Shown here: one piece after another, positions 4,228-46,880 of the stretch
Layout of the letters: each line of letters starts with the position of its first letter
Numbering within the stretch: position 1 is the first letter of the stretch
NCBI GenBank assembly: GCA_017962105.1
Contig: JAGCVY010000096.1
Coordinates: forward strand, 1-48,394
Source of the DNA: Lachnospiraceae bacterium
Lineage (GTDB): Bacteria > Bacillota > Clostridia > Lachnospirales > Lachnospiraceae
Direction of reading: 5' to 3'
Length of the DNA: 48,394 bases
Position numbers and translations under genes: made by a program
Notes under the pieces: generated by a model
Seen by the model: the letters and a program-made list of their open reading frames with translations, nothing else
Database searches by the model: none
What the model was told of the DNA's origin: nothing

Positions 4228-5547
4228 CTAAGCCAGCCCGGGCTTACACGGTTTTCCGTCAAGCCGGCGATAGTGGAAGTACAGCTCCTCCGTCGCCAGC
4301 GCCATCTTCGTGATCGCAAAATCCCGCCCGTGGGGGTAGGTGTACCAGGTGTCCTCGAGGGTGTTCAGGTCCACGCAGTCGCCGAATTTGCCGAGGTATT
4401 CGTACTCGATATGCACCGAGTACTGCGTCTTCGCCTTGATCTCCATGGAAAATGGATTGCCCTCGTCGTCGGTCCCGCTCACGTGGAAACCGTCCATATC
4501 GTGGCGCATGGTGCCGTTCCCGAGCCGCACGAATTTCTTCGCGTTGGGCAGCGAGTCCACATGCACCTCAAGGTCTCCAGAGCTGTACGTCCCGGCCTCG
4601 ACCTCCGCCCGCACGTTGGCGCGCTCCCACTCATACCAGTCGGGAATATGCGTAAAATGAGGCTCCTTCGCCGAGGCATCCGCTGCCGCGACATTTTCCG
4701 ACGCGCCTTCCGACGCATCCCGGCTCAGCTCCCCGAGCGGGCTCATGGTCCAGCTGGCGCCGCAGGCCTCGCAGAACAGCTTCGTACCCTTGCTGTTCAT
4801 GCGGAATTCCGTGCCGCAGGCGGTGCACTGGTACAGAACCTTGTGCAGGCCTTCCGCGCGGCCCTCGTATTTCGTCGCGATCCCGCGCTCCTTCTGCCAC
4901 GCAAAATCATCGTACTGAAACATCTCGACAATCTTTCTGTTGACCTCGTCAACCGAAGCCTCCGCCAGCTCCTCGGGCGTGAAGATGCAGGTCATCTCCG
5001 CCTCCGTGGGCTTGATCCCGCGGTCGTGCAGGTTCCAGAACGGTGAGTTTGCATGGTGGCCGTGACAGATCATCGTCACCACCGGCACCTTCAGGAACTT
5101 GCATAATTTGCCGAGGGATTCCGGCAGCACGGCCGTGGTCCCGCACAGGGAGTAGCGCGCCTCCGGATAGATCACGGCGACGTCCCCGTTCTTGATAACC
5201 TGATGCAGCTGGCGCACCAGGACGATATCGTTTGTAAACTTGCGCTTGCAGATGCAGCCGACGTTGCGCAGCAGCTTCTCGCGGCCGATAAATCCGTCGA
5301 TCGCCACGACATAGTTCGCACGCGTCGGGAAGATTGCCTTCGTAGCCACCTTAAAGTCGAGAAATGCATTGTGATTACACAGCAGCACGTACGGCGGCCT
5401 CAGCCCCTCCGTGCGCACCTTCGTGATCTTTGCGCGGTGCTTCCACACGTCCGGAAGACTCAGCAGGATCGTGATCGGCCGAAGATACCACTTCGTCCTC
5501 ACCGGCGGCTTCGCCATGTCGAACCGTTCAAAATTTTTGCAATCCAT
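4228..5547 (-). CDS. PlsC-like 1-acyl-glycerophosphate acyltransferase with zinc ribbon
   Basis: The first ~200 residues resemble lysophospholipid acyltransferases that transfer fatty acyl groups to glycerophosphate lipids at the inner membrane face. The HX4D catalytic motif is H59-N-A-F-L-D64 (preceded by CN). The second block is YPEARYS (about 127-133), an EAR variant of the usual PEG. A four-cysteine zinc ribbon follows (C241, C244, C259, C262), then a C-terminal domain of about 170 residues that I do not recognise. The ATG at 5547 (MDCKNFERF) has GAGGT upstream; an ATG 18 bases earlier has no ribosome site. It is the first gene of the operon with CapA and IlvB, and has a good promoter at 5606-5634. 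Acyltransferase activity is inferred from motifs only. Confidence 0.8.
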   Translation of the reverse strand: MDCKNFERFDMAKPPVRTKWYLRPITILLSLPDVWKHRAKITKVRTEGLRPPYVLLCNHNAFLDFKVATKAIFPTRANYVVAIDGFIGREKLLRNVGCICKRKFTNDIVLVRQLHQVIKNGDVAVIYPEARYSLCGTTAVLPESLGKLCKFLKVPVVTMICHGHHANSPFWNLHDRGIKPTEAEMTCIFTPEELAEASVDEVNRKIVEMFQYDDFAWQKERGIATKYEGRAEGLHKVLYQCTACGTEFRMNSKGTKLFCEACGASWTMSPLGELSRDASEGASENVAAADASAKEPHFTHIPDWYEWERANVRAEVEAGTYSSGDLEVHVDSLPNAKKFVRLGNGTMRHDMDGFHVSGTDDEGNPFSMEIKAKTQYSVHIEYEYLGKFGDCVDLNTLEDTWYTYPHGRDFAITKMALATEELYFHYRRLDGKPCKPGLA

Positions 5548-5605
5548 CGCGGCGGCACCTCGCATTTTCCGTGCCCGTATTCAAAGGGCACAAATATACT
5601 TACTT

Positions 5606-5634
5606 ATCATACCATAGAACCCCCGTCACGGCAA
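5606..5634 (-). promoter_or_regulatory. Promoter of the acyltransferase-capA-ilvB operon
   Basis: A minus-strand -35 TTGCCG (5629-5634) and -10 TATGAT (5606-5611) are 17 bases apart. It is divergent from the plus-strand promoter at 5661-5689. Confidence 0.65.
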
Positions 5635-5660
5635 GACCTGAGAAGACAGCGCTTTTCCGG

Positions 5661-5689
5661 TTGTGGCAGGCAGGATTTTCCGCTATAAT
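5661..5689 (+). promoter_or_regulatory. Promoter of the Gly/Met-rich protein gene
   Basis: A -35-like TTGTGG (5661-5666), a 17-base spacer and a perfect -10 TATAAT (5684-5689) lie 45 bases before the start codon. The spacer contains ATTTTCCG, the core of the dispersed motif described separately. Confidence 0.7.
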
Positions 5690-5734
5690 GGCAGTGTCGT
5701 TACAAGACGCGTAAAAAACCAACGGAGGAAAATA

Positions 5735-6937
5735 ATGGGCGAGCCTGTATACCTGAAATCATCGGACAAGCCGATCACGGCGGTCCGCTTCAACTACGAC
5801 AAATTCGCCGGGACGCAGTTCGAGATGCGGACCTACACCACCGGCATCGACAGCGACGGCGGCGACATCGAGATGTACAAGCGCATGGGGCCGAACAACT
5901 ACACCGGCCACCGGAAGGAAGGCACCATCCGCATGAACGCGGAGCAGGTGAAGCGGCTTTTCGAGATCCTGGACGACTATGACCTGGAGGCCTGGACTCA
6001 TCTTCCGAGAGGGGGCGCCGGTTACAGCCCGACCCGCAGCCTGATGGTGTTCAGCGGTGAGGAGATCGTCTACGACATCATGTGGAACGCCCCGTTCCCG
6101 AAGACCATTCCGCCGCTTCACGACATCATGTACTGCGACCTCTTCAACCTCTTTAACGGCATCATCGACGAGACCGATGGCTGGGAGGAAGTCCGCGGCG
6201 CGACCGTCCCGGACCCCCGTGAAGAGCCCGCGTACAAGGAACGCACCATCACCTGGTTCGGCAAGGAGCGCCGCCTGGTGCTTGGCACCGGCGTAGGATA
6301 CGCGGACGGTCAATACGCCGACATCGACTACGGCGATCTCCACTGGTGGGAGGAAGAAGGATTTGTCGGGCGCTGGGTTTTGGATCGTTACCGCCCGGAG
6401 GACGAACTTCCGTCCTACAACTCGCTTACTCATATGGGCAGTGAGATCCCACAGCCCCGCATGTCTCCGGACATGATGCGGATGGGATTTGTGGGGGGCG
6501 GAATGCCCGGAGGCATGGGTATGGGCATGCCGGGACTTGCAGCGCAAACCGGTATGGGAGTGCCCGGCGGAATGGGGATGGCTGCGCAAGCGGCCGGAAA
6601 CTCACCTGCAGAAATACAAGGCGGAACGCCCGCTGCCCCGACTCCGACCGAAGAGCCTGTCAAAGAGCCCTTTGCAGAGCTTATCGTGAACAAAGACGGC
6701 ACACTCCGACTCACCCTCGGCGAGTCCGTTTGGACCGGCCATGTCGACCCGAAGCGAAGCGTCATCAACTACGTCTACCTCTACATCAACCGTGAAAGTG
6801 ACGGCGCCGGCAGACGCTGCGATTGCACCCTGCTGCGCGAGCAGTCCTACGAGAGGATCGTCGTCTCCGCACGCCCCGGCCCCGTGCCGACCACGCAGTT
6901 TTCCGCGATCCACGTGTGTCTCAAGAAGGTAGAGTGA
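5735..6937 (+). CDS. Uncharacterised protein with Gly/Met-rich linker
   Basis: I do not recognise this 400-residue protein. The first ~250 residues form an acidic, aromatic-rich domain (for example VRFNYDKFAGTQFEM and WWEEEGFVGRWVLDRYRPE). A low-complexity stretch rich in Gly and Met (repeats of PGGMGMGMPG, about residues 255-290) and a Pro/Thr segment follow. A short C-terminal beta-rich domain ends in IHVCLKKVE. There is no signal peptide or membrane segment. The start is the ATG at 5735 because GGAGG is placed just before it; the earlier in-frame ATG at 5663 lies inside the promoter. It is the only plus-strand gene in the first 33 kb and converges on the TldD/PmbA genes. Confidence 0.75.
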   Translation: MGEPVYLKSSDKPITAVRFNYDKFAGTQFEMRTYTTGIDSDGGDIEMYKRMGPNNYTGHRKEGTIRMNAEQVKRLFEILDDYDLEAWTHLPRGGAGYSPTRSLMVFSGEEIVYDIMWNAPFPKTIPPLHDIMYCDLFNLFNGIIDETDGWEEVRGATVPDPREEPAYKERTITWFGKERRLVLGTGVGYADGQYADIDYGDLHWWEEEGFVGRWVLDRYRPEDELPSYNSLTHMGSEIPQPRMSPDMMRMGFVGGGMPGGMGMGMPGLAAQTGMGVPGGMGMAAQAAGNSPAEIQGGTPAAPTPTEEPVKEPFAELIVNKDGTLRLTLGESVWTGHVDPKRSVINYVYLYINRESDGAGRRCDCTLLREQSYERIVVSARPGPVPTTQFSAIHVCLKKVE

Positions 6938-6939
6938 AC

Positions 6940-6974
6940 AAAAAAGGGACCCTATCTCAAGAGTCCCTAAAAAA
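6940..6974 (-). terminator. Terminator for the minus-strand TldD/PmbA operon
   Basis: The stem AGGGAC/GTCCCT (6945-6950 with 6963-6968) is followed on the minus strand by a run of six T. On the plus strand it lies just after the stop of the Gly/Met-rich gene but has no T-tract in that direction. It would end minus-strand transcripts that have read through array B. Confidence 0.65.
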
Positions 6975-6991
6975 CAAAATCAACTTGCCTC

Positions 6992-7217
6992 GGCATCGGA
7001 ATTGTTGCTTTTCGCCATTTCCGATGCCTTTTCCTTTGAGAATCGGCCTGCAATAGCATCGGGATTCTTGCCTATTGGCATTTCCGATGCTTTTTCCTTC
7101 GAAAACCAGCCTGTCATGACATCGGGATTCTTGCCTATTGGCATTTCCGATGCTTTTTCCTTTGGAACTCGGCCTGTCAAGGCATCGGAACTGCTGCTTT
7201 TTGCCATTTCCGATGCC
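6992..7217. repeat. Array B: four 33-bp interrupted palindromes, exact 63-bp period
   Basis: Each unit is a 33-base interrupted palindrome that starts CATCGGRAWT and ends ATTTCCGATG. A 30-base spacer of related sequence follows (TTTTTCCTTYGRAAA near its start, then GGCCTGTCA). Palindromes lie at 6994-7026, 7057-7089, 7120-7152 and 7183-7215, so the period is exactly 63. The two middle units also have an inner stem TGCC/GGCA with a TATT loop. Because 63 is a multiple of three, open frames with 21-residue repeats run across the array on both strands. They have no ribosome sites and I do not call them genes. The array lies between convergent genes. Confidence 0.9.
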
Positions 7218-7228
7218 CCGACACTACA

Positions 7229-8452
7229 TTACACACGCTCTACACGAAGCAGCATCTGCTTGTCGTGGTAGGTGGCCGGATTATCCGAGCCCACGCCCAG
7301 GAAGTCCTTGCCGAAGATGTCATAGAAGTTGGTCTTCACCTTGAACTCCGGCAGGCGGCCGATGACCTTGTCGCCGTCCCAAAGAAGGGAGGAGTTGATG
7401 ACGATGGTCATGTCACCTTTCTGGTCCAGCTGGCTGCGGGTGTAATCAATCGGAATAACTGCACAACGGCCGTCAAGAAGCTCACGGATGGTCTTGTCGC
7501 TGCGGCGGATGCGGACGTTCATGCCGCCGGGGTAAGTGAGATCCCCGAAATTCCGGCCGGCGGTCTTCGTGTGGGGCACGCCGTATTTGTCGGCAACGCG
7601 CTTGTCGGAATAGCCGATCTTGATGACGCCGTTCTCGATCAGGAGAAGCTTGTCGCCCGGGATCACGCAGCCCTCGCCGTCCCAGAAACGGGTGTACCAG
7701 GATTCCTTGTCAGTGGCATCGTGCTCCAGGGTGAAGGAGTCGGCGAATACCTTCTCGCCGAGTTTGCCGGAGAGCCGGGAGTTGCCGAGGGACATTTCCT
7801 CCGCGTCGAGTTCGCTGACGAGGGAGTCGGCGAAGCCGTAGTACTGCATATCCAGGATGACGTCCTCGGGAATCTCGGCGGCGGTGTCCCATTTGCCGAG
7901 GTAGAGGTCCGCCATCTCACGGAACTTCGTGCCGTCGTCGGGCGTGCGCATATTGAACTCGAAGTCACCGTCCATAATGTTCTTGCTGTCCTTGTGCTTG
8001 AACATGATGCCGACGCCTACGGACGCGTCACTGTTGGAATAGTCGGCCCCGAGGTCATTCGTAAAGGTGTCGGTCTGGCGCGTCGTGGTGAATTTGCCGG
8101 AAAATGTGAACTGCGGGTAGTTGTCCGTCAGATACTTCATGTACTCCTCGGCAAGAGCCATCAATTCGCCTGCGGAAAATTCGGTCTCGGAGAGATCGCG
8201 GACGCGGGTGCTGCCGGCCTCGGGCGAGAACGGGTAAGGTCTTGCGCGCTCCGGATCGGCCTGCGCCTTCGCGTAGCCCTCCTCGTCACTGACCGTTCCG
8301 ATGCAGTGGAAAATGCCGACTTTGCCGTCTTCGTACACGCGGTACGAACTCTCGTCCAGATTGAGGCGCTCGAAGGCCTTCGGCTTATTTTCCTCATAAC
8401 TCATAGTGTTGACTTCACAGTGTGTGCCGTGTTTTTCTTTGATTGCTGCCAT
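7229..8452 (-). CDS. PmbA/TldE-like partner of a TldD protease
   Basis: This 407-residue protein belongs to the TldD/PmbA (U62) family, whose two subunits form a metalloprotease that trims unfolded peptides and precursors such as microcin B17. In that complex TldE/PmbA supplies structure while TldD carries the zinc site. Consistent with this, no HExxxH motif is present. Family-like parts are the central domain (TFTNDLGADYSNSDASVG), GDFEFNMRTPD, and the C-terminal NVRIRRSDKTIRELL with IVINSSLLWDGDKV. The ATG at 8452 has AGGGGGGAA well placed. The upstream TldD gene ends 13 bases before it, so they are cotranscribed. The identification rests on context and weak family resemblance. Confidence 0.75.
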   Translation of the reverse strand: MAAIKEKHGTHCEVNTMSYEENKPKAFERLNLDESSYRVYEDGKVGIFHCIGTVSDEEGYAKAQADPERARPYPFSPEAGSTRVRDLSETEFSAGELMALAEEYMKYLTDNYPQFTFSGKFTTTRQTDTFTNDLGADYSNSDASVGVGIMFKHKDSKNIMDGDFEFNMRTPDDGTKFREMADLYLGKWDTAAEIPEDVILDMQYYGFADSLVSELDAEEMSLGNSRLSGKLGEKVFADSFTLEHDATDKESWYTRFWDGEGCVIPGDKLLLIENGVIKIGYSDKRVADKYGVPHTKTAGRNFGDLTYPGGMNVRIRRSDKTIRELLDGRCAVIPIDYTRSQLDQKGDMTIVINSSLLWDGDKVIGRLPEFKVKTNFYDIFGKDFLGVGSDNPATYHDKQMLLRVERV

Positions 8453-8465
8453 AGTAATTCCCCCC

Positions 8466-9812
8466 TTAGCTTACCTGTAACTTCTTGACGCGGATGGTGG
8501 GACCGCCGGCGGAAACCCGCGCGCCCTGACCCAATTTCCCGCAATAGTACGTGTCAAACAGTTCGAAATCGGAACCGACGCGGTCGATGTCGAAGAGTGT
8601 CTGGAACACCGAGCCCGTGACCATGCGGACGCGCAGCGGCTCGCAGATCTTGCCGTCGCGGATCCGGTAGCAGATGACCGGGTTGAGGACGAAGGTCGAG
8701 TTGCCGGTGCCGTTGCTGACCATGTAGACGTAGATGCCGTCCTTCGTGTCGGCGATGATGTCGTCGAAGGAATCCGTGCCGCCTTTCATGAAGGTGTTGG
8801 TCATGCGGACCAGCGGCCGCATTCTGTAGTCCTGGGCACGGCTGTTGCCGGTAAGCTCCTCGCCGAGGACCGCTGCCGAGTTGGAATCGTGCAGGCGTCC
8901 GGTGAGCACGCCTTCTTTGATCAACCAGTTCTCGCGGGCCCTGGTGCCCTCGTCGTCATAAGGAACGTATCCGTGGTTGGGCATATCGCCGCTGTCGCAG
9001 ATGGACACAAGCTCCGAGCCGACCTTCTTGCCCATCACCCACTCGTCGCGAAGGGTCTTGTCGTTCAGCATGAAGTCCGCCTCGCTCTTGTGGCCGAAGC
9101 TCTCATGGGCGAACATTGCCGTGGTGATCGGCGAGAGAATGCAGGTGTACTCGCCGGGCTCCACATCCACCGCGTTTGCAATATAATCAACGAGACGGTC
9201 GCGCTCGGAAAGGAACTCCTGCTCGTGACCGTAGAGGTCCTCCGGCATCATTCCGAAGAAGTTCTTGCCGCCGCCCATGGGCTCGCCGTTGTTACCGAAA
9301 GACATGTATACGTTGAGGCTGCAAAGCTGGTAATCCCAGGCGACAGCACAGCCCTTGCTGGAGTAAAAACTCTTCTTCTCGTAGTCACCGCCCACCGAGA
9401 TGGACCAGGATGTCATGTCGGGATACTCCGGATCGATACACGCATCGACATAGTGGTTTAAAACGGTCAGAAAACGAGACCGCGCGATGTTCCCGAGGAA
9501 CTTTTCACCTGTGTACTGCAGACGCTCATCCACGTTGACCTCGAGAAGTTTGATCGCCGGATCCTCGTAGATGTTTTCATTCGGCGTCGCAAGTTTCGCC
9601 AGCGCGTCGAGCTCGTCCTGGATCTTTTCGAGGTCGTTGACGGACGAGGTGTACCATAATTTGCCGTCGTACACGCGCACTAACGCACCGACATTGGAGG
9701 TCGCGTTATCCCTCGTGAGCTCCCCGTTGTACATGCCCAGGTTGGTCGAATACGACTCCTGGATTCGGATATCCGAGTAAAGATTTTCCGGAAAATGATA
9801 CTGCTGTTTCAT
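8466..9812 (-). CDS. tldD: TldD-like metalloprotease
   Basis: TldD/TldE proteases cut unfolded peptides and mature some ribosomally made peptides. This 448-residue protein carries the U62 zinc motif HESFGH (H236, E237, H241) with a downstream SEAD. Other TldD-type blocks are GYVPYDDEGTRARENWLIKEG, HDSNSAAVLGEELTGNSRAQ, the Met/Thr-rich MRPLVRMTNTFM, and GGPTIRVKKLQVS at the end. The start ATG at 9812 follows GGGGGAAAG. It lies 17 bases after an XRE-type regulator gene and 13 bases before the PmbA-like gene, which suggests a three-gene operon. The natural substrate is unknown; no small peptide precursor gene was evident next to it. Confidence 0.88.
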   Translation of the reverse strand: MKQQYHFPENLYSDIRIQESYSTNLGMYNGELTRDNATSNVGALVRVYDGKLWYTSSVNDLEKIQDELDALAKLATPNENIYEDPAIKLLEVNVDERLQYTGEKFLGNIARSRFLTVLNHYVDACIDPEYPDMTSWSISVGGDYEKKSFYSSKGCAVAWDYQLCSLNVYMSFGNNGEPMGGGKNFFGMMPEDLYGHEQEFLSERDRLVDYIANAVDVEPGEYTCILSPITTAMFAHESFGHKSEADFMLNDKTLRDEWVMGKKVGSELVSICDSGDMPNHGYVPYDDEGTRARENWLIKEGVLTGRLHDSNSAAVLGEELTGNSRAQDYRMRPLVRMTNTFMKGGTDSFDDIIADTKDGIYVYMVSNGTGNSTFVLNPVICYRIRDGKICEPLRVRMVTGSVFQTLFDIDRVGSDFELFDTYYCGKLGQGARVSAGGPTIRVKKLQVS

Positions 9813-9829
9813 ACTTTCCCCCTGATTAA

Positions 9830-10732: not shown

Positions 10733-10799
10733 AATAACCTCCTTCTTCATATCCGGTTGCGTGAGCCCCCTGCTCTCGCCTTCCGGTTGATTTGTCTGC

Positions 10800-10808
10800 A
10801 TTGTAACA
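10800..10808 (-). promoter_or_regulatory. Extended -10 element upstream of the XRE gene
   Basis: On the minus strand TGT-TACAAT (10800-10808) is an extended -10 box about 68 bases before the ATG. No good -35 is visible at 17 bases. Confidence 0.4.
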
Positions 10809-10918
10809 CAAGTTTCGGTTGAGTGGTAGAGCAATTACAACTTACAGTTTATTTTTCAGTGGAGAAATCCCGGATTTTTCTACTTTGAGTTGTTTCAATT
10901 GGAAGAAAATCTACTGAA

Positions 10919-10974
10919 AAAAACCTCCCGATCGCCGCGGAGTCATATTTTTTGCGGTCAACCAAGAGGTTTTT
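10919..10974 (-). terminator. Probable terminator after the YitT gene
   Basis: Arms AAAAACCTC (10919-10927) and GAGGTTTTT (10966-10974) enclose a long loop with an inner CCGC/GCGG pairing. The arms themselves supply T-runs on both strands. It lies 23 bases beyond the yitT stop. Confidence 0.5.
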
Positions 10975-10997
10975 GCCACATATTTTGCGGGTTTTGG

Positions 10998-39199: not shown

Positions 39200-41341
39200 T
39201 TACGGTCCGCATGTTCCACACGGACTGTAACCATGATTTATCAGCCAACTCCGCGCATCTCCCGCTGATGCAAATCCATGTTCAGTTGCATACATCGTGT
39301 TCTCAGCAAGCATTTTTTTAATATGTCGACAACCTGTCTTATGGAATTTCATCGTGTTGACATTAACCACGTAATAAACATAATAGCTATTCGCAGAACT
39401 ATCCAGCGCATTTGTAACCTTCTTTGGCTTGGGCGTTGGTGTCTTCGTTGGCTTTGGTGTCGGGGTTTTGGTCGGTTTCGGCGTCGGAGTCTTGGTTGGT
39501 TTCGGTGTTGGAGTCTTTGTTGGTTTTGGCGTCGGAGTGTCCTTAGCCGTAAGACCCTTGTCAATTTCAGGTGTTACCGATGCTGTGGGAGCCTCAGCAG
39601 GCGTCGGTGTGGGCGTCGGTCTATTAGGATCCTCTTCCTCCGGCATATGGTAGCTCACAACGACAGAAGAATTGACATAGAAAATATCATCTTTTTCGTA
39701 CGATGTTATTCCGTTTATGGTAACTTTCTTGGTTAATTCCTTACCACTTTTACCGCTTTTTATATCATATTCCGGAACCTCTGTTATGTTAGTAAAACCA
39801 AGATTTTTGAGGTCTTGAACTACATCGTGATAATTTCTGTCCAGAAACCCTTTCTCATTCCTATCAACACGAGTTTCATCTTCTGTCAACTCACGAACAT
39901 ACAAAAGACCTGTTTCTCTAACCGTGACATACGACGATTCACACTCTATACGATATGCTACTTCTGTCTTCCCGTGAACAAAGAGAACGACTTTTCCTTC
40001 AACCTTTTCACTGTTACTTTTTACACATCTAACGGTGTGATTTCCATCCTCAAGTTTGACGGTAAATACCGACCCTTTTCCGTGAGCAAATGATGCTACG
40101 AGCTGACTATCGATGTACATATCCACATCGTATTTGTCCAAAACAAGATTTCCTGGAAAGTCCACGGTAATCTTCACGTCAAACAAAGCCGGCGTAGGTG
40201 TAGGACTCGGCGTCGGCGCAGGGCTCAGTGTCGGGGTGGGACTTGGCGTCGGGGTGGGACTCGGTGTCGGTGTGGGGCTCGGCGTTGAAGTGGGGCTTGC
40301 GCTTTGCCCAAAAGGAACACTTCTATCAACCATATATTTTGTGCTCATTAATGCTCGAGCCTTTTCAAGGTTAGTTCTTTGAATCCAATACCTTCCCCCA
40401 CTACTTGTTGTCACTTCGACCTCATTAATATTTTCGTTTCGGAATTTAAATAATAATGTAATCCTATCGTCTATGTTATATAATTCAAAAGTTGCCCCAT
40501 CTTTGAGATTCCCTGCATAAAATGCAAACCGATAGTATTCTTGTCCAGTCTCTTGAAAAAAACATCCATAACATGAATCAAAATTCAAGATGAAATATAT
40601 ATTATTTCCGTTTTCTTTTCCTAAATATGAATACTCCCCTGTTGCTCCTTCTTCTGCAGTTTTTTTATCCGTATTAGTTGTGAAATCAAGGGTACTATTG
40701 GAATCAATCGGTGTTTGTGTGGGTGAAAATCCAAACCCATCATTATCACTTACATCAACCATCATAAGTTGATTCATCTGATTAAGTGCACTCTTTAAAT
40801 CTGTTACTTTAAACTCGGCAATATTCCCTTCGCTATCCGCAGCGCTCATCACACTAGGTTCTTCAGTTTTTTTCCACTTAACATTCAAAACATATTCTAT
40901 TGACGGTTGTGACGAAACATCGTATCCTACAAGTTTTGACCCAGTATTCAAATCTCCATTTACAATTTTGAGCCGTATATAGAAAGCATCGCCTGCGTTC
41001 CAAAGATATCCGTACCCTTCATCAAAGTCCAAAACTAAAAATTGTTTTTCAGCCTTGTCTGTGTACGAATATTTTCCGGCATTCCCTTTTTTAACATTTT
41101 CATCATTATTTGAAGAAAAGGTCAAACTAGAAGTTTGTATCGGAGTAGGGGGCGGAGTATTAGTTGATGTAGGTGAGATTAATTGAGAAACATTCTCTGT
41201 AGGTGTGATTGTCAGTTTTTCTTCAATCTCTTTTCTCCTTTTCTCATGGCTATTGTCTTCATTTTCACCACCCATACACCCGACCAGTGCAAGGGAGAAA
41301 AGTATAAGCACAATAAAGCAGATTGGTTTTCGAGTCTTCAT
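39200..41341 (-). CDS. Large surface lipoprotein with Pro/Thr linkers and C-terminal Cys/His domain
   Basis: A 713-residue lipoprotein (lipobox LALVGC, C22). Two similar domains follow (GKYSYTDKAEKQFLVLDFDE and GEYSYLGKENGNNIYFILNF, about 90-200 and 235-345). Then come a Thr-Pro-Ser linker, a PEGA-like beta domain (ITVDFPGNLVLDKYDVDMYI), a PASTA-like segment (VVQDLKNLGFTNITEVPEYD), four repeats of TPTPKPTK, and a C-terminal domain with FHKTGCRHIKKM and YSPCGTCGP. That last type is found at the ends of secreted nucleases and other exported proteins of Clostridia, and its CxH/CxxC residues probably bind metal. ATG at 41341 with GAGG upstream. DNA is AT-rich. Confidence 0.75.
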   Translation of the reverse strand: MKTRKPICFIVLILFSLALVGCMGGENEDNSHEKRRKEIEEKLTITPTENVSQLISPTSTNTPPPTPIQTSSLTFSSNNDENVKKGNAGKYSYTDKAEKQFLVLDFDEGYGYLWNAGDAFYIRLKIVNGDLNTGSKLVGYDVSSQPSIEYVLNVKWKKTEEPSVMSAADSEGNIAEFKVTDLKSALNQMNQLMMVDVSDNDGFGFSPTQTPIDSNSTLDFTTNTDKKTAEEGATGEYSYLGKENGNNIYFILNFDSCYGCFFQETGQEYYRFAFYAGNLKDGATFELYNIDDRITLLFKFRNENINEVEVTTSSGGRYWIQRTNLEKARALMSTKYMVDRSVPFGQSASPTSTPSPTPTPSPTPTPSPTPTLSPAPTPSPTPTPALFDVKITVDFPGNLVLDKYDVDMYIDSQLVASFAHGKGSVFTVKLEDGNHTVRCVKSNSEKVEGKVVLFVHGKTEVAYRIECESSYVTVRETGLLYVRELTEDETRVDRNEKGFLDRNYHDVVQDLKNLGFTNITEVPEYDIKSGKSGKELTKKVTINGITSYEKDDIFYVNSSVVVSYHMPEEEDPNRPTPTPTPAEAPTASVTPEIDKGLTAKDTPTPKPTKTPTPKPTKTPTPKPTKTPTPKPTKTPTPKPKKVTNALDSSANSYYVYYVVNVNTMKFHKTGCRHIKKMLAENTMYATEHGFASAGDARSWLINHGYSPCGTCGP

Positions 41342-41693
41342 TGTTAACCTCACATTCATTTATACTGTTGCATAGGACCTTATTAATTCCTTTTTTGTCA
41401 TCAAACATGTATCTATCATGTTATAAACAATATATCTTTTACAAATATGCTCTGTCAATCAAGTATATTGTCAGTATATATCCCCCTCGATTTTCACGTG
41501 ATTTTATCACGTTTTCTGCAAGCATATATTACACATTTATATAACAACGTAAAACAGCGGGGCCACCACCACGATGGCCCCGCTCCCTTCATAACTCACT
41601 TTTCAGCCGATTACTCCCATCTCCCGAAGTTGGTGTCGTAATACCCATACGCCCCCTCACAGGAGCCAAGGTAACCGATCACAACGACCGGCC
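41342..41693. other. 352-base gap with one terminator
   Basis: The first 200 bases are AT-rich and presumably hold the promoter of the large lipoprotein gene, but no good -35/-10 pair stands out. The terminator at 41556-41584 is the only clear element. In 41600-41690 the minus strand has an open stretch that ends YDTNFGRWE, but it has no start or ribosome site. Confidence 0.5.
41556..41584 (-). terminator. Terminator downstream of the AmmeMemoRadiSam genes
   Basis: A perfect 10-bp GC-rich stem AGCGGGGCCA/TGGCCCCGCT with a 9-base loop is followed on the minus strand by GTTTTACG. It lies 109 bases past the radical SAM stop. Confidence 0.75.
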
Positions 41694-42542
41694 TCAACAA
41701 TTCCCCGTATAGACATACGGCAGATTCTCCCGCGCGACCTCCGCGAGGCGGTAGACCGTACGCACGTCCGTGGCGCTGCGGTCCTTCATGTGGAAGTGCG
41801 GGAAGAAGCGGCTGATGTGTAAGGGCACGCTGTCTCCGTCGGGGTTCCGGAGCGCGCTGACCCAGCGGGACAGCTCCCGCATCTCGTCCTCGGTGTCATT
41901 TTCCGACGGAATGATCAGGGTTGTGAGCTCCACGTGGCAGCTCTTCACGGCCTCCTCGATGAAGGCCATCACCATCGCCCGGTTTCCGCCGAGGACGTCG
42001 TTATAGTATCGGTCGGAAAAGCCCTTCAGGTCGATGTTCATGGCGTCCATGTACGGCGCCAGCTCCCGCAGGATTGCCAGCTCGGCGGTGCCGTTGGTGA
42101 CCATCACGGTCTGAAGGCCCGCTGCCTGCGCAAGCTTCGAGGTGTCCAGCACGAACTCGTAGCCGACGAGGGGCTCGTTGTAGGTAAATGCGATGCCGAT
42201 GTTGCCCTTCGGCTTGGTCGCCACAGCGATCTCCACAAGTTCGTCCGGGCTCACCCGCTCTGCTGTCTCGGCGTACTTCAACGCCTGCTCCGACCAGGAA
42301 ATGTCGTTGTTCTGGCAGAAGGGGCACCGCAGGTTGCAGCCGAAGCTTCCCACGGACAGGATCTTGCTGCCGGGGTAAAACCGCGCTAACGGCTTCTTCT
42401 CGATCGGGTCCAGCGCAAGGGACGCGATACGGCCGTAGTTGTGGGACACCGTGACGTCGCCGCGCGCCGTCCGTCCGCCGCAGAAGCCGAGTTTCCCGTC
42501 GGGAATATCACAATGCCGGAAACATACGTTGCATTTTGCCAT
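41694..42542 (-). CDS. amrS: AmmeMemoRadiSam system radical SAM enzyme
   Basis: A 282-residue radical SAM protein. The cluster-binding motif is C69-NLR-C73-PF-C76, reading FGCNLRCPFCQNND. Upstream a second Cys group (CNVCFRHCDIPDGKLGFCGG) is typical of this family and resembles the pyruvate formate-lyase activase group. Other blocks are FTYNEPLVGYEFVLD, NIDLKGFSDRYY and the ending YVYTGNC. It is the third component of the AmmeMemoRadiSam system, defined by co-occurrence with Memo and AMMECR1 proteins; I know of no established reaction. It starts at 42542 and follows the Memo-AMMECR1 fusion gene by 47 bases. Confidence 0.92.
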   Translation of the reverse strand: MAKCNVCFRHCDIPDGKLGFCGGRTARGDVTVSHNYGRIASLALDPIEKKPLARFYPGSKILSVGSFGCNLRCPFCQNNDISWSEQALKYAETAERVSPDELVEIAVATKPKGNIGIAFTYNEPLVGYEFVLDTSKLAQAAGLQTVMVTNGTAELAILRELAPYMDAMNIDLKGFSDRYYNDVLGGNRAMVMAFIEEAVKSCHVELTTLIIPSENDTEDEMRELSRWVSALRNPDGDSVPLHISRFFPHFHMKDRSATDVRTVYRLAEVARENLPYVYTGNC

Positions 42543-42589
42543 GGCTCATTCCTCCGCCTGATATAGTCCGCGGCCCGCGCAGCCGCGTC

Positions 42590-43975
42590 CTAGTAATGTC
42601 TCACAACCTCAAACCGCTCGAGACGGTACGGCTCGTCCTCCCGGATGCCACCCTTCCGTCTGGCGATGCTGATCTGCTCCTCCACGGTGTCCACGCCGTC
42701 CAGATTCGGCAGCAGAAGCCCGCGCTTCCTGCCGCAGCTCACGATGACGCCGTAGCGCTTCACATCGAGCTCTGCGGGCGAATCGATCGGTTCGGTCTCC
42801 CCGAGTACATCCACGCTGATCTCGAGGCTCTTGAGCTCCCCCTCCGTGATCGGAGAAAACCGCGGATCCCTCGAGCACGCGCTTATGGCGTTGGAGATAA
42901 TCTCCTCCGCGATGGAGTCCTGCGTCGCCGCGATGGTGCCGATACAGCCGCGAAGCTGCCCGTTTTTGTGGATGGAGACAAAGGTTCCCGCCTGCCTCGT
43001 GAGCATCTCGGTCGGCAGCCCCTCCGGCACGGAAAGCTTCTTCCGCCGAAGGACCCACAACTCCACGGAAGCCCGCGCAAGCCGCACGTACGCATCGCTC
43101 TGCGCCGCCTTCTCCAGGCACTCCCGCTCCGTCTCCTCCTGATACATTTTCAGAAAATGTCTCTCCGGATCCGTCCCCTGCGGGTAAAACGTGCACACGC
43201 CGTAGCCGACGCCCGTCACGTCCTGATGGGACAGTGCCGTCGCCTTCACGCCAAGCCCGTCCAGAGCCCCCGCCATGATCACAAAGGACCGATGACCGCA
43301 CTCGGCCGCCTTGTCGCAAAATGTCTCGTCGAAGTCGAACAGTTCCCCGAAGGCCGCCCGTCCGCAGACGTCCATGATCCTGCGGTCGTACTCCGGCCCT
43401 TCCTTGGCGAACCCGTAGGGCCCGTACTCCTGCAGCTTGTGGGAGAGGTCGCCGCTGGCGATGATCACCGCCCGCCGTCCGGTGTCCTCCACCGCCTTCG
43501 CGATGATCTGCCCGAGGCGGTAGTGGTCCGTGAGCGGAAGCCCCGACAGGCCGATCCGCACGATTTTCCCCTCCTTGTACTTCTGCCGGATAAACCAAAG
43601 CGGTACCATCGTGCCGTGGTCAAGGGAGGCATCCCGCTCCCCGAGGGTTCCCGCGGGAAGGTCCGCTGCCTCCGCCAGGTCGCAGATCCGCCGCACCAAA
43701 GGCATGTCGTACTGCTCGGTGAAGCTTACCCCGGGCGCCCGGAACTGCCGGAAGGACCCGGTTGCGCCGCTGCCCGGCGAGATATGAAAATAGTCCGCAT
43801 ACATCACGCTGTGCGGACTCGTGATGATCATAACCTCGGGCCGGAGCGCCGCCACCTCATCGGCAACCTGCTCGTACGCCCGCGTCGTCTCCGAGACCTG
43901 ACGCTCGCTTCCCTTTCCGATCTCCGGGACGATCATCGGCGGATGGGGCACCATAAACGTTGCAAGAATTGACAT
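42590..43975 (-). CDS. Memo-AMMECR1 fusion (AmmeMemoRadiSam proteins B and A)
   Basis: A 461-residue fusion. Residues ~1-275 are a Memo-like domain related to class III extradiol dioxygenases (LigB type): MVPHPPMIVPEIG, ITSPHSVMYADYF, SLDHGTMVPLWFI, IIASGDLSHKLQEYGPYG, with the expected His residues. Residues ~285-461 are an AMMECR1 domain, with GQLRGCIGTIAATQDSIAEE and RFSPITEGELKSLEISVDVL. The ATG at 43975 follows GGAGG; the open frame upstream to 44245 is not used. Fusion of A and B supports a shared complex with the radical SAM enzyme downstream. The human relatives MEMO1 and AMMECR1 also lack an agreed enzymatic role. Confidence 0.93.
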   Translation of the reverse strand: MSILATFMVPHPPMIVPEIGKGSERQVSETTRAYEQVADEVAALRPEVMIITSPHSVMYADYFHISPGSGATGSFRQFRAPGVSFTEQYDMPLVRRICDLAEAADLPAGTLGERDASLDHGTMVPLWFIRQKYKEGKIVRIGLSGLPLTDHYRLGQIIAKAVEDTGRRAVIIASGDLSHKLQEYGPYGFAKEGPEYDRRIMDVCGRAAFGELFDFDETFCDKAAECGHRSFVIMAGALDGLGVKATALSHQDVTGVGYGVCTFYPQGTDPERHFLKMYQEETERECLEKAAQSDAYVRLARASVELWVLRRKKLSVPEGLPTEMLTRQAGTFVSIHKNGQLRGCIGTIAATQDSIAEEIISNAISACSRDPRFSPITEGELKSLEISVDVLGETEPIDSPAELDVKRYGVIVSCGRKRGLLLPNLDGVDTVEEQISIARRKGGIREDEPYRLERFEVVRHY

Positions 43976-44008
43976 ATACGCCTCCGAAATTCGCAAAAAA
44001 TGATAGTA

Positions 44009-44056
44009 CTTCTCCTCAAAAAACGAGAAGAATTTTCCGCTCGGAAAGATTATACT
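44009..44056. promoter_or_regulatory. Divergent promoter region with motif palindrome
   Basis: A -10 TATACT (plus, 44051-44056) and a -10 TATAAT (minus, 44049-44054) overlap. Next to them is a perfect palindrome TTTCCG-CT-CGGAAA (44034-44047), built from the core of the dispersed CATTTTCCG motif. A second inverted repeat CTTCTC-N10-GAGAAG (44009-44030) lies in the leader of the minus-strand transcript. The -35 boxes are weak. Confidence 0.45.
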
Positions 44057-44110
44057 GAGGCCACAAAGAGAAAAAAGCGAAAGCTGAACACACGCAAAGG
44101 AGGAATCACT

Positions 44111-44296
44111 ATGAAACTGTTCCGTAAGAAAGAAAAAATCATTCTCAGATCCGAGCAAATGAAAGACGAGTTCATCGACAAGTTGGAGAACGCCCATCTC
44201 GACTACGACATCCGCACCGACCGGGACGAAAGTTTCGACGGGCATCCTACTTACATCATTCGCGTTTATGCGACCGATTTAGCCAAGGTCGTTTAA
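44111..44296 (+). CDS. Small protein, 61 residues
   Basis: A 61-residue, highly charged soluble protein (MKLFRKKEKIILRSEQMKDE to the ending YIIRVYATDLAKVV). The strong AAAGGAGG seven bases before the ATG and the perfect terminator 25 bases after the stop mark it as a real monocistronic gene. A longer frame upstream to 44000 runs through the promoter. The pattern of two helices and two strands hints at a DUF2007-like or ferredoxin-like signalling fold, but I cannot assign it. Confidence 0.75.
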   Translation: MKLFRKKEKIILRSEQMKDEFIDKLENAHLDYDIRTDRDESFDGHPTYIIRVYATDLAKVV

Positions 44297-44320
44297 GAAT
44301 CCCTTCCTCGGTAGTACCGA

Positions 44321-44358
44321 AACAGCTGCGCGGCATAACTGTTGCGCAGCTGTTTTTT
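44321..44358 (+). terminator. Terminator after the 61-residue protein gene
   Basis: An 11-bp stem AACAGCTGCGC/GCGCAGCTGTT with a 12-base loop, ending in a run of T. It could also serve the convergent AraC gene. Confidence 0.9.
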
Positions 44359-44371
44359 TGTCTCATATACA

Positions 44372-45241
44372 CTACCGGTCGTTCTTCACGAGCAGGTTCC
44401 GGTACTCGCCCGGCGCCATGCCCTTCTCCTCGTGGAACACGCGGTTGAAGCTCGGAATGCTCTGGAATCCCGACAGCATCGCCACCTCCGTGAGGGTCCT
44501 GTCCTCCTGCGTCAGCAGCTCCGTGGCCTTCTCCAGACGGATCATGTTCAGCCATTTGCTGTAGTTCATGCCGGTCACGTGCTTGAAAATCCTCGAAAAA
44601 TAATCCTTGCTGATCCCGGCCATCTCCGCCATCGCCCCCTGCGACAGATCGTCCGCCGTCAGGTTGTTTTTGATGTAATCGGTGACCGTGATCATCCGCC
44701 GGACGACGTCCGCGGAGAACCCGTCGGCGTCGGTTTCCTCATTTTCCGGATTCAGCTCTTTCCGGTACTCCAAAAGAAGAAGCATGAACTCCATTAAGAG
44801 CATGCAGCAGCGCATCTCGCGCCCCGGAATGTCCGAAAAATAAGTCTCCTTCATCCGCGTCGTGATCACCTTCAGCTTCGCTGCCAGCTCCGGGTGCGCC
44901 TCGGCGCTGATGACGTGCAGATTGCGGTAGAGGTGCATGATCCGCTGCAGATCGAAGAGCGAGTTGATGAACGCCAGTGAAAACTGGATGACCAGAGCGT
45001 CCTTCCGGTCCGCGTCCACGATGGAGTGCATTTCCATGGGCCACACCAGCACGAAATCGTCCGGCGCCAGGCTGTAGGTGTTCCGTCCGACGGTATAAAT
45101 GTTGGTCTCCCCGGACCCTACCACCAGAATTTCCCCCTAGGAATGCCAATGCACCTGGTAGCATCGCTCCCGGTACCCCGTGGACATGTTGAACGCGCTC
45201 CTGCGCTCAAACGGATACGTCTCATAGGTGCTGTAATCCAT
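44372..45241 (-). pseudogene. AraC-family regulator interrupted by an amber codon
   Basis: The ATG at 45241 (AAGGAGA upstream) begins MDYSTYETYPFERRSAFNMS and reads to CYQVHWHS, where TAG at 45137-45139 ends the frame at codon 35. The same frame continues GEILVVGSGETNIYTVGR and so on to 44372. HWHS-x-GEILVV is the typical start of the AraC cupin sensor domain, so the TAG replaces one codon (probably GAG). The rest includes two HTH motifs, AEMAGISKDYFSRIFKHVTG and AMLSGFQSIPSFNRVFHEEK, ending at APGEYR. A GTG at 45124 might restart translation, but the product would lack part of the cupin. It is last in line after the ExbB/ExbD-like operon (29-base gap). Confidence 0.85.
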
Positions 45242-45270
45242 GGGCTCTCCTTCGCCTCATCGGCTGCCGG

Positions 45271-45678
45271 CTACTTCTCCGTCGTCGTGATCTTCAGTGC
45301 GCTCAGCGCCTCCTTGATCTCCTTGACGAGCTCGCTGTCACCGTACGCAAAATCAACCGTCACCTCGGTGTTGGCCAGATCCTTCTTCGCAAAATACTCC
45401 TCCAGCCATACCTTCCAGGTCTTTCCCTCGGGAAGCGCCTGCTCCGCGCCGTTGACCGAGACCTTCTCGGCGTTGACCTGGATCGTAACCTTCTCCTTCT
45501 CCTTCTGCTGCTCGCTCACGTTGGCGTCCTTGATGTTCTCGTTGTAGTACTGCGCCCCGCCGTACGCGCCGAGGCCGAGCATCGCGGCGATCACCAATGC
45601 GACCAGCGGTTTCTTGCTGCCTTTCTTCTTTACGTCCTTCTGCTCCGCGCCGTTGGCCGCTGCCGTTTCCTTTTTCAT
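45271..45678 (-). CDS. Small membrane-anchored protein with ExbD/TolR-like outer domain (gene D)
   Basis: A 135-residue protein with a basic N-terminus, one membrane segment (about 24-42, PLVALVIAAMLGLGAYGGA), a short coiled-coil linker and a C-terminal domain (about 62-131). That domain reads EKVTIQVNAEKVSVNGAEQA, EVTVDFAYGDS and LVKEIKEALSALKI. This strand-NG-helix-strand-helix order resembles the periplasmic domain of ExbD/TolR. No Asp is present in the membrane segment. AAAGGAG overlaps the end of gene C, 4 bases away. It is the fourth gene after the ExbB-like subunit. The ExbD resemblance is my inference from pattern only. Confidence 0.65.
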   Translation of the reverse strand: MKKETAAANGAEQKDVKKKGSKKPLVALVIAAMLGLGAYGGAQYYNENIKDANVSEQQKEKEKVTIQVNAEKVSVNGAEQALPEGKTWKVWLEEYFAKKDLANTEVTVDFAYGDSELVKEIKEALSALKITTTEK

Positions 45679-45682
45679 TTCT

Positions 45683-46258
45683 TCAGTTCTCCTTTCGCTT
45701 TTCGTATTGATTTTCCGTCAAGATTTCGTTCAGTATCGATACTACCTTCCGATAGGTTCCGTAGTCCGAGTAATCGTCGATCAGCACCACGGTGAGGGTG
45801 TCGTCGTACTTGTCCTTGATCCGCGCCTTCAGCCGGTCGATCTCCACCGGCTCCGCGTCGACGTACACCGTGCATCCCGTGACGGCGATGTCGAGCTCGC
45901 CCTCGGTCACATGCTTCTTCTCCTTCACGTCGCCCTTGCCGACTCCGACCCCGGTCCCGTCACCGGCCCCGATGCCCTTGCCCTTGCCGAGGCCGATGCC
46001 GTATCCGCCGCCCAGGCTCAGGAGCAGCAGAAGAAGCCCGATCCCCAGTATCGTCAGCGTGGATTTTACGTATTTGCCGGTCTTCGTCACCTTCTTGGGC
46101 AGGAACCGCGGGAGCACCCAGAACATCACGGTGAACGCCGCAAGGAACGCCAGTCCGACGTAAAACCAGCCCACCAGCTTCGCCTTCCACGCCTCGAGGA
46201 TGGCGTCCTTCATCGAGAGGGCCCCGGAAAGCGATGCGATTTTAGTATACATCGTCAT
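45683..46258 (-). CDS. Two-pass membrane protein with Gly-rich linker and ExbD-like outer domain (gene C)
   Basis: A 191-residue protein: two membrane segments (about 30-50 and 63-84), a glycine-rich segment (about 83-110, repeats of GKGKGIGAGDGTG type) and a C-terminal domain (about 118-180) reading ELDIAVTGCTVYVDAEPVEI, DRLKARI, TLTVVLIDDYSDYGTYRKVV. The last part follows the ExbD/TolR outer-domain pattern (V-x-V-D-x-x-x-V, helix, V-x-L-x-x-D, helix). The ATG at 46258 has GGAGGG upstream and overlaps gene B by 17 bases, so translation is coupled. No Asp is found in either membrane segment. Confidence 0.68.
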   Translation of the reverse strand: MTMYTKIASLSGALSMKDAILEAWKAKLVGWFYVGLAFLAAFTVMFWVLPRFLPKKVTKTGKYVKSTLTILGIGLLLLLLSLGGGYGIGLGKGKGIGAGDGTGVGVGKGDVKEKKHVTEGELDIAVTGCTVYVDAEPVEIDRLKARIKDKYDDTLTVVLIDDYSDYGTYRKVVSILNEILTENQYEKRKEN

Positions 46259-46880
46259 ACGCACCCTCCAGATTCCGAATGACTCCGGTGATCTCCTCAT
46301 AGTCCCGCGTCAGGATCCCGCCCTCTTCCCTGCTGACGGAAAATACGATCACGGTCCTCTCCTGTTTGTTCTCGCCGTACCCGTCGCCCAACTGCTCACG
46401 GTCGGCCTTTTTTATCGTCTCAACATATTTCGTAAGCGTCTCCCGGAGTGCGCCGTACGCTGTTTTCTCGGTGCTCTCCTTGAAGTCGCGCTCTAAGATC
46501 ATTCTCTTGTCACTGCCCAAAACCCGCAGGTGTCTCGGCCACTCTTCCCTCTCGCTGACATCCCCCGCCTCGTAGGTGCAGCTGATTGTGACGATCACCA
46601 CGCGGCTGCCCACAACGGCTCCGCTCAGCTCCTCGATCTGCTGCTCGTACACCTTCAGGTCGGCAAGCTTGTCATTGGCCTCGGCGAGCTTTTGGTCCGC
46701 TTCCGCCAGTACCTCTTCGGCCTCCGTCATTTTCCGGTCCGCGGCGTCGCTCACACCCGCACTCTTAAGCGCGTATCCGACCATGACCACGAACAGGAAG
46801 ATGAACACGATATCCATAAACGAGGTCATTTCAAACTGCGGGTTCGGCGATGACGCGGTCGCAGGATTTCTTCTCTTCAT
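46242..46880 (-). CDS. ExbD/MotB-like stator subunit with coiled coil (gene B)
   Basis: A 212-residue protein. The single membrane segment reads FEMTSFMDIVFIFLFVVMVG (about 16-35). The Asp (D23) near its start is where ExbD/TolR/MotB carry the proton-binding Asp. A coiled coil follows (about 48-85, MTEAEEVLAEADQKLAEAND) and then an outer alpha/beta domain of ~120 residues (VVIVTISCTYEAG, ERTVIVFSVSREEG) that is not an OmpA-type peptidoglycan binder. GAGGGA precedes the ATG. It lies 18 bases after the ExbB-like gene and overlaps gene C. Together these suggest an ion-driven stator unit at the cytoplasmic membrane. Confidence 0.78.
   Translation of the reverse strand: MKRRNPATASSPNPQFEMTSFMDIVFIFLFVVMVGYALKSAGVSDAADRKMTEAEEVLAEADQKLAEANDKLADLKVYEQQIEELSGAVVGSRVVIVTISCTYEAGDVSEREEWPRHLRVLGSDKRMILERDFKESTEKTAYGALRETLTKYVETIKKADREQLGDGYGENKQERTVIVFSVSREEGGILTRDYEEITGVIRNLEGAYDDVY

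Follow-up and report, generated by a model that had tools for sequence, protein, structure and literature searches.

A stretch of 48,394 nucleotides from a Lachnospiraceae bacterium, referred to here as the window, is dotted with one short word, CATTTTCCG, and raises the question of why this 9-mer is so frequent. It ranks first among the 9-mers of the window by frequency, with 21 exact copies between 4692 and 46736 (15 on the plus strand and 6 on the minus strand), while dinucleotide shuffles of the window (n = 100) gave a mean of 0.88 copies and a maximum of 4. Our recount agrees with a preliminary description in placing 19 of these copies outside repeat arrays; the other two (33294 and 33672) lie in an array of 63-bp period (33207-33789). 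The GC content of the window is 53.2%, not 55-57% as given there, and about 0.9-1.3 copies are expected by chance, where "well under one" had been claimed. The sites are as follows.

4692..4700, plus: exact word, antisense in acyltransferase-like gene 4228-5565
5563..5571, plus: exact word, 5' end of ORF 4228-5565, overlapping its start; intergenic under a shorter gene call
8098..8106, minus: exact word, sense in TldD/PmbA-like gene 7229-8452
9789..9797, minus: exact word, sense in TldD/PmbA gene 8466-9812
9782-9790, plus: inverted variant GATTTTCCG, overlapping the exact word at 9789..9797 (minus)
12064..12072, minus: exact word, sense in FG-GAP gene 11897-13756
14252..14260, plus: exact word, antisense in GGDEF gene 13760-15211
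15254..15262, minus: exact word, intergenic by gene call
17260..17268, plus: exact word, intergenic by gene call; inside longer ORF 15263-17578
18453..18461, plus: exact word, antisense in AAA gene 17350-18486
18462..29524, no strand: stretch free of the exact word, GC 45.6%, context outside the motif proper; holds a Panacea-antitoxin-like gene, HNH nuclease genes and one defence-candidate gene
29525..29533, plus: exact word, antisense in WYL-domain gene 29486-30529
31312..31320, minus: exact word, sense in gene 31073-31888
33294..33302, plus: exact word, within the 63-bp-period array
33672..33680, plus: exact word, within the 63-bp-period array
34208..34216, plus: exact word, sense in Y-family polymerase (IMS) gene 33955-35580
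34444..34452, minus: exact word, antisense in IMS gene 33955-35580; inverted close pair with 34208
35830..35838, plus: exact word, sense in gene 35577-35999 (gene call)
37257..37265, plus: exact word, intergenic by gene call
38077..38085, plus: exact word, sense in BACON-domain gene 37329-38681
41897..41905, plus: exact word, antisense in radical SAM gene 41694-42542
44740..44748, plus: exact word, antisense in AraC-type gene 44372-45124
46728..46736, plus: exact word, antisense in gene 46242-46880
555..47597, both strands: exact and variant sites together, n = 82 (21 exact), of the forms nATTTTnCG, CATTTTCC[ACT] and CATTT[GAC]CCG

The excess is real and genome-wide. The 2.59-Mb genome holds 1060 exact copies, divided almost equally between the two orientations (523+537), compared with 8 (3+5) of the reversed word. 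When synonymous codons were shuffled within genes in a 681-kb sample, only 16.8 of the 213 coding copies were left, and a codon or protein cause was rejected on these grounds. Descent from a decayed longer repeat family was likewise rejected, as the copies share no flanks beyond the 9-mer other than a weak preference for A. The preliminary description had proposed a functional genome-wide oligomer and had named a genome count near expectation, or an effect of codon pairs, as what would speak against it; neither was found, and the proposal is supported by both the genome count and the shuffles. The remark made there on TTT-TCC spelling is addressed collectively by the same shuffles. Word deserts were considered as foreign islands and this was rejected: the spacing of words is random overall, with gap lengths as random as expected (CV 0.98). 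Taken alone, the 11-kb gap of the window therefore says nothing on this point, and just the trend with GC content given below does.

The most likely explanation, to which we assign a probability of roughly 40%, is that CATTTTCCG is a DNA-uptake-type self tag that is read on each strand separately. Uptake words are established in two families, the Neisseriaceae (DUS) and the Pasteurellaceae (USS). According to the accessible part of PMC1939737, Haemophilus influenzae carries 1471 word copies and Neisseria gonorrhoeae 1965, so the excess of 1060 over 8 is of the same order, which counts in favor of uptake.

The word behaves like a putative degenerate binding motif of roughly the form [C>T,G]-A-T-T-T-T-n-C-G, weakly A-rich thereafter, in which A2-T5 and C8 are strict while positions 1, 6, 7 and 9 are tolerant. 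This position-graded tolerance argues for the uptake reading, and so does the thinning of the relaxed motif in low-GC DNA (62 in 21 scanning windows, or 84 kb, below 52% GC; 706 in 141 scanning windows, or 564 kb, above). Variants at A2, on the other hand, are depleted in G000, with 16 observed and 46 expected; decaying words would give an excess instead, and this counts against uptake. Conservation at orthologous sites points both ways: in G189, 12 of 23 words are identical, compared with 17.8% of control 9-mers, in favor of uptake, while in G203 the words (0.659) are no better kept than their flanks (0.743), which speaks against it.

Neither GC skew (128 words with, 156 against) nor gene strand (93 same, 120 opposite) shows a clear bias, and the same holds for the majority gene strand (116 same, 142 opposite). 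Together with the near-equal orientations, this is counted for uptake. So is the density in G000, which is 0.745 per kb between genes and 0.362 inside genes; spacers are denser than coding DNA in G189, G203 and G201 as well. Pieces that were more than half N were excluded from this survey (1 of 41 in G000, 1 of 10 in G201, 1 of 10 in G089). A CGGAAA arm lies within about 45 nt of 20 of 67 spacer words in G000 (6.6% at random positions) and of 5 of 27 in G189 (8.5%). A terminator role was tried and rejected because, despite these arms, the words are not enriched in convergent spacers.

Same-orientation pairs of exact words at 9-600 bp number 18 where 48 are expected, with none of 2000 label shuffles as extreme, whereas opposite-orientation pairs show no avoidance (69, with 51 expected); among adjacent exact words less than 600 bp apart, 17 share an orientation and 65 alternate. 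These orientation-resolved tests covered sampled word-bearing genomes, and the same test was run on E. coli Chi. They used 471 of the 477 exact words, since pieces with more than 100 N were excluded (two that were N throughout, and one from G189 that carries 6 words); with the G189 piece restored, the counts are 18 direct (49.3 expected) and 70 inverted (51.3 expected), and 17 same against 66 alternating. Close pairs of the relaxed word in four genomes, overlaps removed, comprise 65 inverted and 36 direct, an asymmetry that is significant in G000 alone (P 0.027). We know of no earlier report of such words alternating in orientation below about 600 bp. The pattern suggests a signal that is read one strand at a time, and because same-orientation neighbors are rare within about 600 bp and opposite ones are not, we infer a reader confined to one strand or one direction. 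Known uptake words act in either orientation. In H. influenzae, as far as the accessible part of PMC1939737 goes, uptake is independent of word orientation; this does not predict same-orientation exclusion and is counted against uptake.

Of the 22 species of this Lachnospiraceae genus, 19 carry CATTTTnCG at three or more times the level of its reversed control. The three word-poor congeners (G218, G227, G232) each have PilT and five pilins, which counts against uptake. Beyond the genus, a word survey by synonymous shuffling used coding samples of 62-74 kb for G000 and ten genera, 150 kb for G073 and 99 kb for G089. In G073 the word is CATTGnCC, whose 2302 copies exceed the mean of its three position-2 neighbors by a factor of 27, and CBTTGnCC are few; in G089 it is CATTTnCC, found 96 times in coding DNA compared with 18.6 after shuffling. 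With samples cut to 70 kb in five draws, z was 13.7-21.4 for G073, 14.4-16.0 for G089 and 15.0-21.9 for G000. All three words have CATT and a C at position 8, so that those of the two other genera resemble dialects, and they are counted for the uptake reading. The G073 word is not spacer-enriched (0.80 per kb between genes, 1.41 in genes), which is counted against it; G089 shows little difference (0.82 and 0.70 per kb, respectively). Attempts to relate G073 and G089 to G000 via sampled orthologues were too noisy for use.

The idea that the word-poor congeners use the G073 word was unsupported, since CATTGnCC stands in them at 1.3-2.2 times the reversed control (1.7 in G000) and at 0.6-1.5 times its position-2 neighbors. 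In the pilus-less genera G062, G072 and G185 the same word seemed high by the reversed control but is only 1.1, 1.3 and 2.1 times its neighbors; because the neighbor control lowered the signal this far, the reversed word is an imperfect control when used alone, in the family survey as well. The weak words CAAGTCC and CAAGTGC, at 2.6-5 times expectation by Markov models in five genera, are not top words under synonymous shuffling.

The genome itself encodes PilB, PilT, PilC, a prepilin peptidase and five pilin-type genes in one locus, together with ComEC. This is counted for uptake, even though a type IV pilus with ComEC does not discriminate among genera. The first pilin of the locus scored 21.7 bits against ComP_DUS, the DUS receptor family in Pfam, under the cut-off of 27.3, and its relative in G203 scored 17.9 bits; the other 8 pilins tried gave no such match, and the relative in word-bearing G211 gave none either. 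The matching region adjoins the generic pilin helix and the best solved-structure matches are PilA-type pilins, which counts against uptake; as a candidate receptor, this ComP_DUS-like pilin is a weak lead only. Equally on the negative side, 10 of 10 sampled pilus-bearing genera lack a comparable word, so that in this sample of pilus-positive genera pilus presence was rejected as a predictor, and word-rich G222, G223 and G230, like G089, yielded no pilin. The pilus-locus PilT is absent from four word-bearing MAGs (G215, G223, G230, G231), all at most 85% complete.

Under the uptake reading, the word would be a self-DNA signal kept genome-wide, working like DUS and USS. A type IV pilus and ComEC route would favor the import of word-carrying DNA, imported copies would replace word-less alleles through recombination, and words would thereby build up in genes as well as in spacers, whichever way they point. 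Dialects would arise as the putative reader protein changes. Were that reader to act on one strand or direction, one word per strand per approximately 0.6 kb would suffice and a second copy would gain nothing. That Gram-positive gut anaerobes possess an uptake word with dialects, single-strand reading and orientations alternating below about 600 bp is a reading we put forward tentatively, at somewhat less than even odds.

Next in rank, and in our judgment rather unlikely though a serious candidate, is a strand-specific intracellular site, at which a putative protein would methylate, nick, repair or load on one strand of CATTTTnCG. The same-orientation exclusion with opposite pairs left free fits this well, as does the absence of a link to pilus genes across the genera sampled, and the depletion of A2 variants in G000 and of CBTTGnCC in G073 suggests active upkeep of the words. 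Under this reading each strand would have to offer the protein a site at intervals of a few hundred bases. Changing words that are patchily distributed in the family would, however, be out of the ordinary for a core repair role. The A2 and CBTTGnCC depletion would also be expected if a site-specific mutation or repair bias wrote the word without benefit, but such a bias would ignore same-orientation neighbors up to 600 bp away and does not account for word retention at orthologous sites in G189; we consider it the least probable of all the explanations.

Directional reading is likewise what a Chi-like recombination hotspot, putatively read by AddAB from one direction, would bring, and the lower density in low-GC DNA agrees with it. 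E. coli Chi (GCTGGTGG) is read in one direction; in the same test over 750 kb it is strand-biased (140:56) and clustered in the same orientation (29 pairs, 18.2 expected; inverted 10, 12.1 expected), which makes it a poor model for a word that follows no GC skew. Ten other genera, each of which would be expected to need Chi, moreover lack a comparable word, and we regard this explanation as improbable. Of the options that the preliminary description had listed, the Chi-like one is thus disfavored by the missing strand bias and the same-orientation exclusion, while an uptake or recognition word and a strand-specific binding site are both still candidates. A chromosome-organising, replication-polarity or RNA-level site (KOPS/SRS, a nucleoid protein, transcription) would suit words spread genome-wide without shared flanks; it is more improbable still, as the words follow neither GC skew nor gene strand, show no replichore skew of the KOPS/SRS type, are not enriched in convergent spacers and do not depart from random overall spacing.

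If the uptake reading is true, sequence-selective transformation would have arisen in Lachnospiraceae, a common gut family, biasing gene flow there toward kin, and genome sequence alone would reveal a strand-specific reader and its working range. Why uptake words accumulate would become testable in a further lineage with word-rich and word-poor sister species. If the word does not serve uptake, a thousand-copy strand-specific site would lead to an unknown DNA transaction.

Compared with known systems, CATTTTCCG shares with Chi a non-palindromic, genome-wide word and, probably, one-direction reading; it differs in lacking strand bias and in having same-orientation pairs depleted, not enriched. 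The preliminary description knew of no such word in this bacterial group, and none is described in the titles and abstract openings listed by searches among open-licence papers. HIP1 (GCGATCGC) of cyanobacteria, described in the accessible part of PMC4390886 as a palindrome linked to methyltransferases, is also highly iterated genome-wide and scarce in some relatives, but CATTTTCCG is asymmetric and not self-complementary. As far as the accessible parts of PMC3630211, PMC12616744 and PMC1939737 go, DUS and USS resemble it in being short, non-palindromic words with about a thousand copies in equal orientations, in lying in genes and more so in spacers (for this genus), in core-sharing dialects and some inverted close pairs, and in hosts with type IV pilus and ComEC genes. 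CATTTTCCG has another sequence and belongs to another phylum, its receptor is putative, pilus-bearing relatives were sampled that carry no CATTTTCCG-like word, and its same-orientation neighbors are rare within about 600 bp. Orientation exclusion offers a cheap quantitative test that can be applied to DUS, USS, Chi and HIP1 genomes alike.

The 9-mer CATTTTCCG is the most frequent in the window, where 21 exact copies occur on both strands, 19 of them outside and 2 inside an array of 63-bp period. Dinucleotide shuffles predict 0.88 copies, and none of 100 shuffles reached 21. The whole assembly of this genome (G000; 2,587,466 bp in 105 contigs, of which the window is contig 57) holds 523 + 537 copies, or one per 2.4 kb, as against 3 + 5 for a reversed control, the word read backwards. 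In a 681-kb sample, composed of the window and 40 stretches, the word again ranks top among 9-mers, with 284 copies where a third-order Markov model predicts 19.5. The window also carries the following features.

6992-7216: intergenic tandem array, 63-bp unit, with inverted arms CATCGG...TTTCCGATG
33207-33789: intergenic tandem array, 63-bp unit, with the same inverted arms and two exact words
18900-29300: low-GC block; genes for a Panacea-antitoxin-like protein and for HNH nucleases, plus a PADLOC candidate (PDC-S07) and a type IV restriction-like match

The two arrays are 26 kb apart, and the exact words in the second occur where the arm reads CATTTTCCGATG. The low-GC block looks like a candidate defence island; a WYL regulator adjoins it. 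On contig 30 of the same assembly, locus L138:1-10567 is without an exact word and has a GmrSD_N-domain gene and a DUF7834 gene amid metabolic genes. For one window protein, the nearest relatives lie in records labelled as MAGs of Lachnospiraceae or Lachnoclostridium, water-buffalo forestomach being the source of two; six of these genomes agree exactly in their counts with species of the window's genus. Among the 80 loci listed for the TldD/PmbA protein (window 8466-9812), the nearest relatives are in Lachnospiraceae and 'Ruminococcus' MAGs and the next (L062-L066) in Treponema/Spirochaetaceae MAGs, at 48-51% identity; transfer of this gene between phyla is suggested.

A codon origin of the word was ruled out by synonymous shuffles inside each gene, which preserved every protein and the per-gene codon use. 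Of 213 coding copies in the G000 sample, only 16.8 ± 4.1 remained after shuffling; for two other species of the genus the figures were 9.8 of 80 (G189) and 4.2 of 44 (G203). A longer repeat was also ruled out as the origin, the flanks having no common sequence; their sole shared trait is a weak preference for A 3' of the word. Relative to the synonymous shuffles, single changes at the strict positions A2, T3, T4, T5 and C8 occur at 0.1 to 2.8 times expectation. The tolerant positions are 1 (A, G and T enriched 5-8x), 6 (G 8x, A 3.4x, C 2.3x), 7 (A 10x, T 8x, G 4.5x) and 9 (A and T 5-8x, C 4x). This graded tolerance is the behaviour expected of a putative binding site. Variants at A2 are depleted in G000 (16 observed, 46 expected from the shuffles), and a wrong letter there is rarer than expected both in G000 and in G073, from another genus; the scarce variants look as if they had been converted or removed.

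According to a simple codon-usage gene caller written for the analysis, whose gene ends are approximate, the G000 sample has 93 copies on the coding strand, 120 on the opposite strand, 67 between genes and 4 across a gene end. Intergenic density is 0.745 per kb, as against 0.362 per kb within genes. Orientation shows no clear bias, whether set against GC skew (128/156) or against the majority gene strand (116/142), and overall spacing is random (CV 0.98). The relaxed motif, which includes tolerated variants, reaches 1.25 per kb in windows above 52% GC and 0.74 below, a low-GC scarcity contrary to what composition predicts. At orthologous sites the word is identical in 12 of 23 cases in G189 (control 9-mers, 17.8%), 3 of 15 in G203 (12.3%) and 2 of 6 in a further congener, G201 (12.6%). 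Identity within the word exceeds that of the flanks in G189 (0.874 vs 0.792) and G201 (0.778 vs 0.609); in G203 it is lower (0.659 vs 0.743).

A new observation concerns the relative orientation of neighbouring words. For this, exact words sampled from four species of the genus were pooled (471 of the 477). Pairs in the same orientation at 9-600 bp numbered 18, while random placement predicts 48; opposite-orientation pairs numbered 69 (51 expected), neither of the two opposite arrangements being depleted. Restoring an omitted piece gave 18 (49.3 expected) and 70 (51.3 expected), respectively. Same-orientation pairs are depleted in G000 alone (13 vs 34.9, P 2e-5) and in G189, G203 and G201 together (5 vs 14.7, P 0.003); the direction is the same, below significance, in G073 (19 vs 27.6, P 0.056) and in G089, from a further genus (10 vs 15.7, P 0.087). 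Adjacent words less than 600 bp apart are opposite in 65 cases and alike in 17; from 600 bp to 4 kb the figures are 119 and 127. The lowest same-orientation count in 2000 shuffles of the orientation labels was 27. Exclusion is seen within single genes (9 same, 34 opposite) and among other pairs (9 and 35), and it weakens with weaker variants, to 0.75 for strong-weak and 0.84 for weak-weak pairs. Four hundred other frequent 9-mers, pooled, show the reverse trend (same 1321 vs 632 expected, opposite 274 vs 372). Thus a second same-orientation word within ~0.6 kb tends not to be retained, whereas an opposite one is. Because only the former is excluded, the reader of the word seems to work on one strand at a time or directionally.

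In a survey of 200 Lachnospiraceae genomes from 199 genera, scored against the reversed word, an imperfect control, the window's own genus leads (1060 and 763 copies vs 8 and 14), followed by G073 (401 vs 15) and G089 (337 vs 20). None of the remaining 196 exceeds 277 copies (maximum in G149, 5.7 Mb); most lie at up to ~6 times the control and a few near 10, such as G137 (113 vs 11) and G114 (170 vs 19). The two of these 196 that were re-examined with the relaxed pattern CATTTTnCG gave 3.1 (G114) and 1.8 (G188) times control. Of the 22 species in the genus, 19 carry this pattern at 3 times control or more, and the remaining three (G218, G227 and G232) do not exceed 1.5 times.

Related dialects occur in the two other genera. 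The words that rank highest in G073 are CATTGCCC, CATTGACC and CATTGGCC; under synonymous shuffling CATTGnCC ranks first and CATTTnCC second. Genome-wide, CATTGnCC has 1160 + 1142 copies there (control 162), and its three other position-2 letters have 251 combined. CATTTnCC heads the patterns of G089 (96 vs 18.6 expected from synonymous shuffling), where CATTGnCC is just 2.6 times its position-2 neighbours. Every dialect combines CATT with a C at position 8, and the middle is tolerant in each. Ten further genera, chosen for a pilus-type PilT and sampled at 71-80 kb each, gave a best gapped or plain 8-mer z of at most 9.2; the three word-bearing genomes, trimmed to 70 kb, gave 13.7-21.9.

G000 has a ComEC gene and a pilus locus (contig 92, 27,570-39,323) encoding PilB (T2SSE plus MshEN), PilT, PilC (T2SSF), two pilins, a prepilin peptidase and three more N_methyl genes. 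The first pilin (L239:827-1339) matches ComP_DUS, the Pfam family of the DUS receptor, at E 3.8e-4 and 21.7 bits (curated cut-off 27.3), and its G203 relative scores 17.9 bits; the other 8 of 10 pilins, from G000, G211, G189, G073, G202 and the word-less G207, gave no match. Among solved structures, its closest counterparts are PilA-type pilins; we regard the ComP_DUS similarity as a candidate lead and do not claim a receptor. G000 carries two PilT-like genes (C92:28791-29813 and C6:6152-7165) that fall into different score classes, and the pilus-locus PilT was told from the second by score. PilT scores above cut-off in all 22 genus species and in 126 of 200 family genomes (74 have none). Four word-bearing MAGs, 79-85% complete, are without the pilus-locus PilT, and that of G222 is cut near a contig end. 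The pilin search gave no match in the word-rich G222, G223 and G230 or in G089. The nearly word-free G218, G227 and G232 retain PilT and have five pilin matches each, which makes them a natural comparison for finding the reader. The machinery is compatible with uptake, but it is no predictor of the word.

Our leading interpretation, to which we assign a probability of about 0.4, is that the word is an uptake-type self tag read per strand. A strand-specific intracellular site would share the per-strand reading and is a somewhat less probable alternative. A Chi-like recombination site is improbable: E. coli Chi is strand-biased (140:56 among 196 sites in 750 kb), whereas the word shows no clear GC-skew bias, and Chi pairs in the same orientation exceed expectation (29 vs 18.2; inverted, 10 vs 12.1; 750 kb). 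Among the titles and abstract openings listed by searches of an open-licence library, none describes such a word in Lachnospiraceae. Published accounts of uptake words give as their marks a large excess, equal orientations, an excess in spacers, dialects and patchy distribution (PMC1939737, PMC3630211, PMC12616744, PMC7811141). With the DUS and USS of Neisseriaceae and Pasteurellaceae, as described there, the word shares the size of its excess, equal orientations, a spacer excess (in its own genus), dialects and patchiness; its orientation exclusion, however, and the existence of word-less genomes that bear pili do not fit those accounts.
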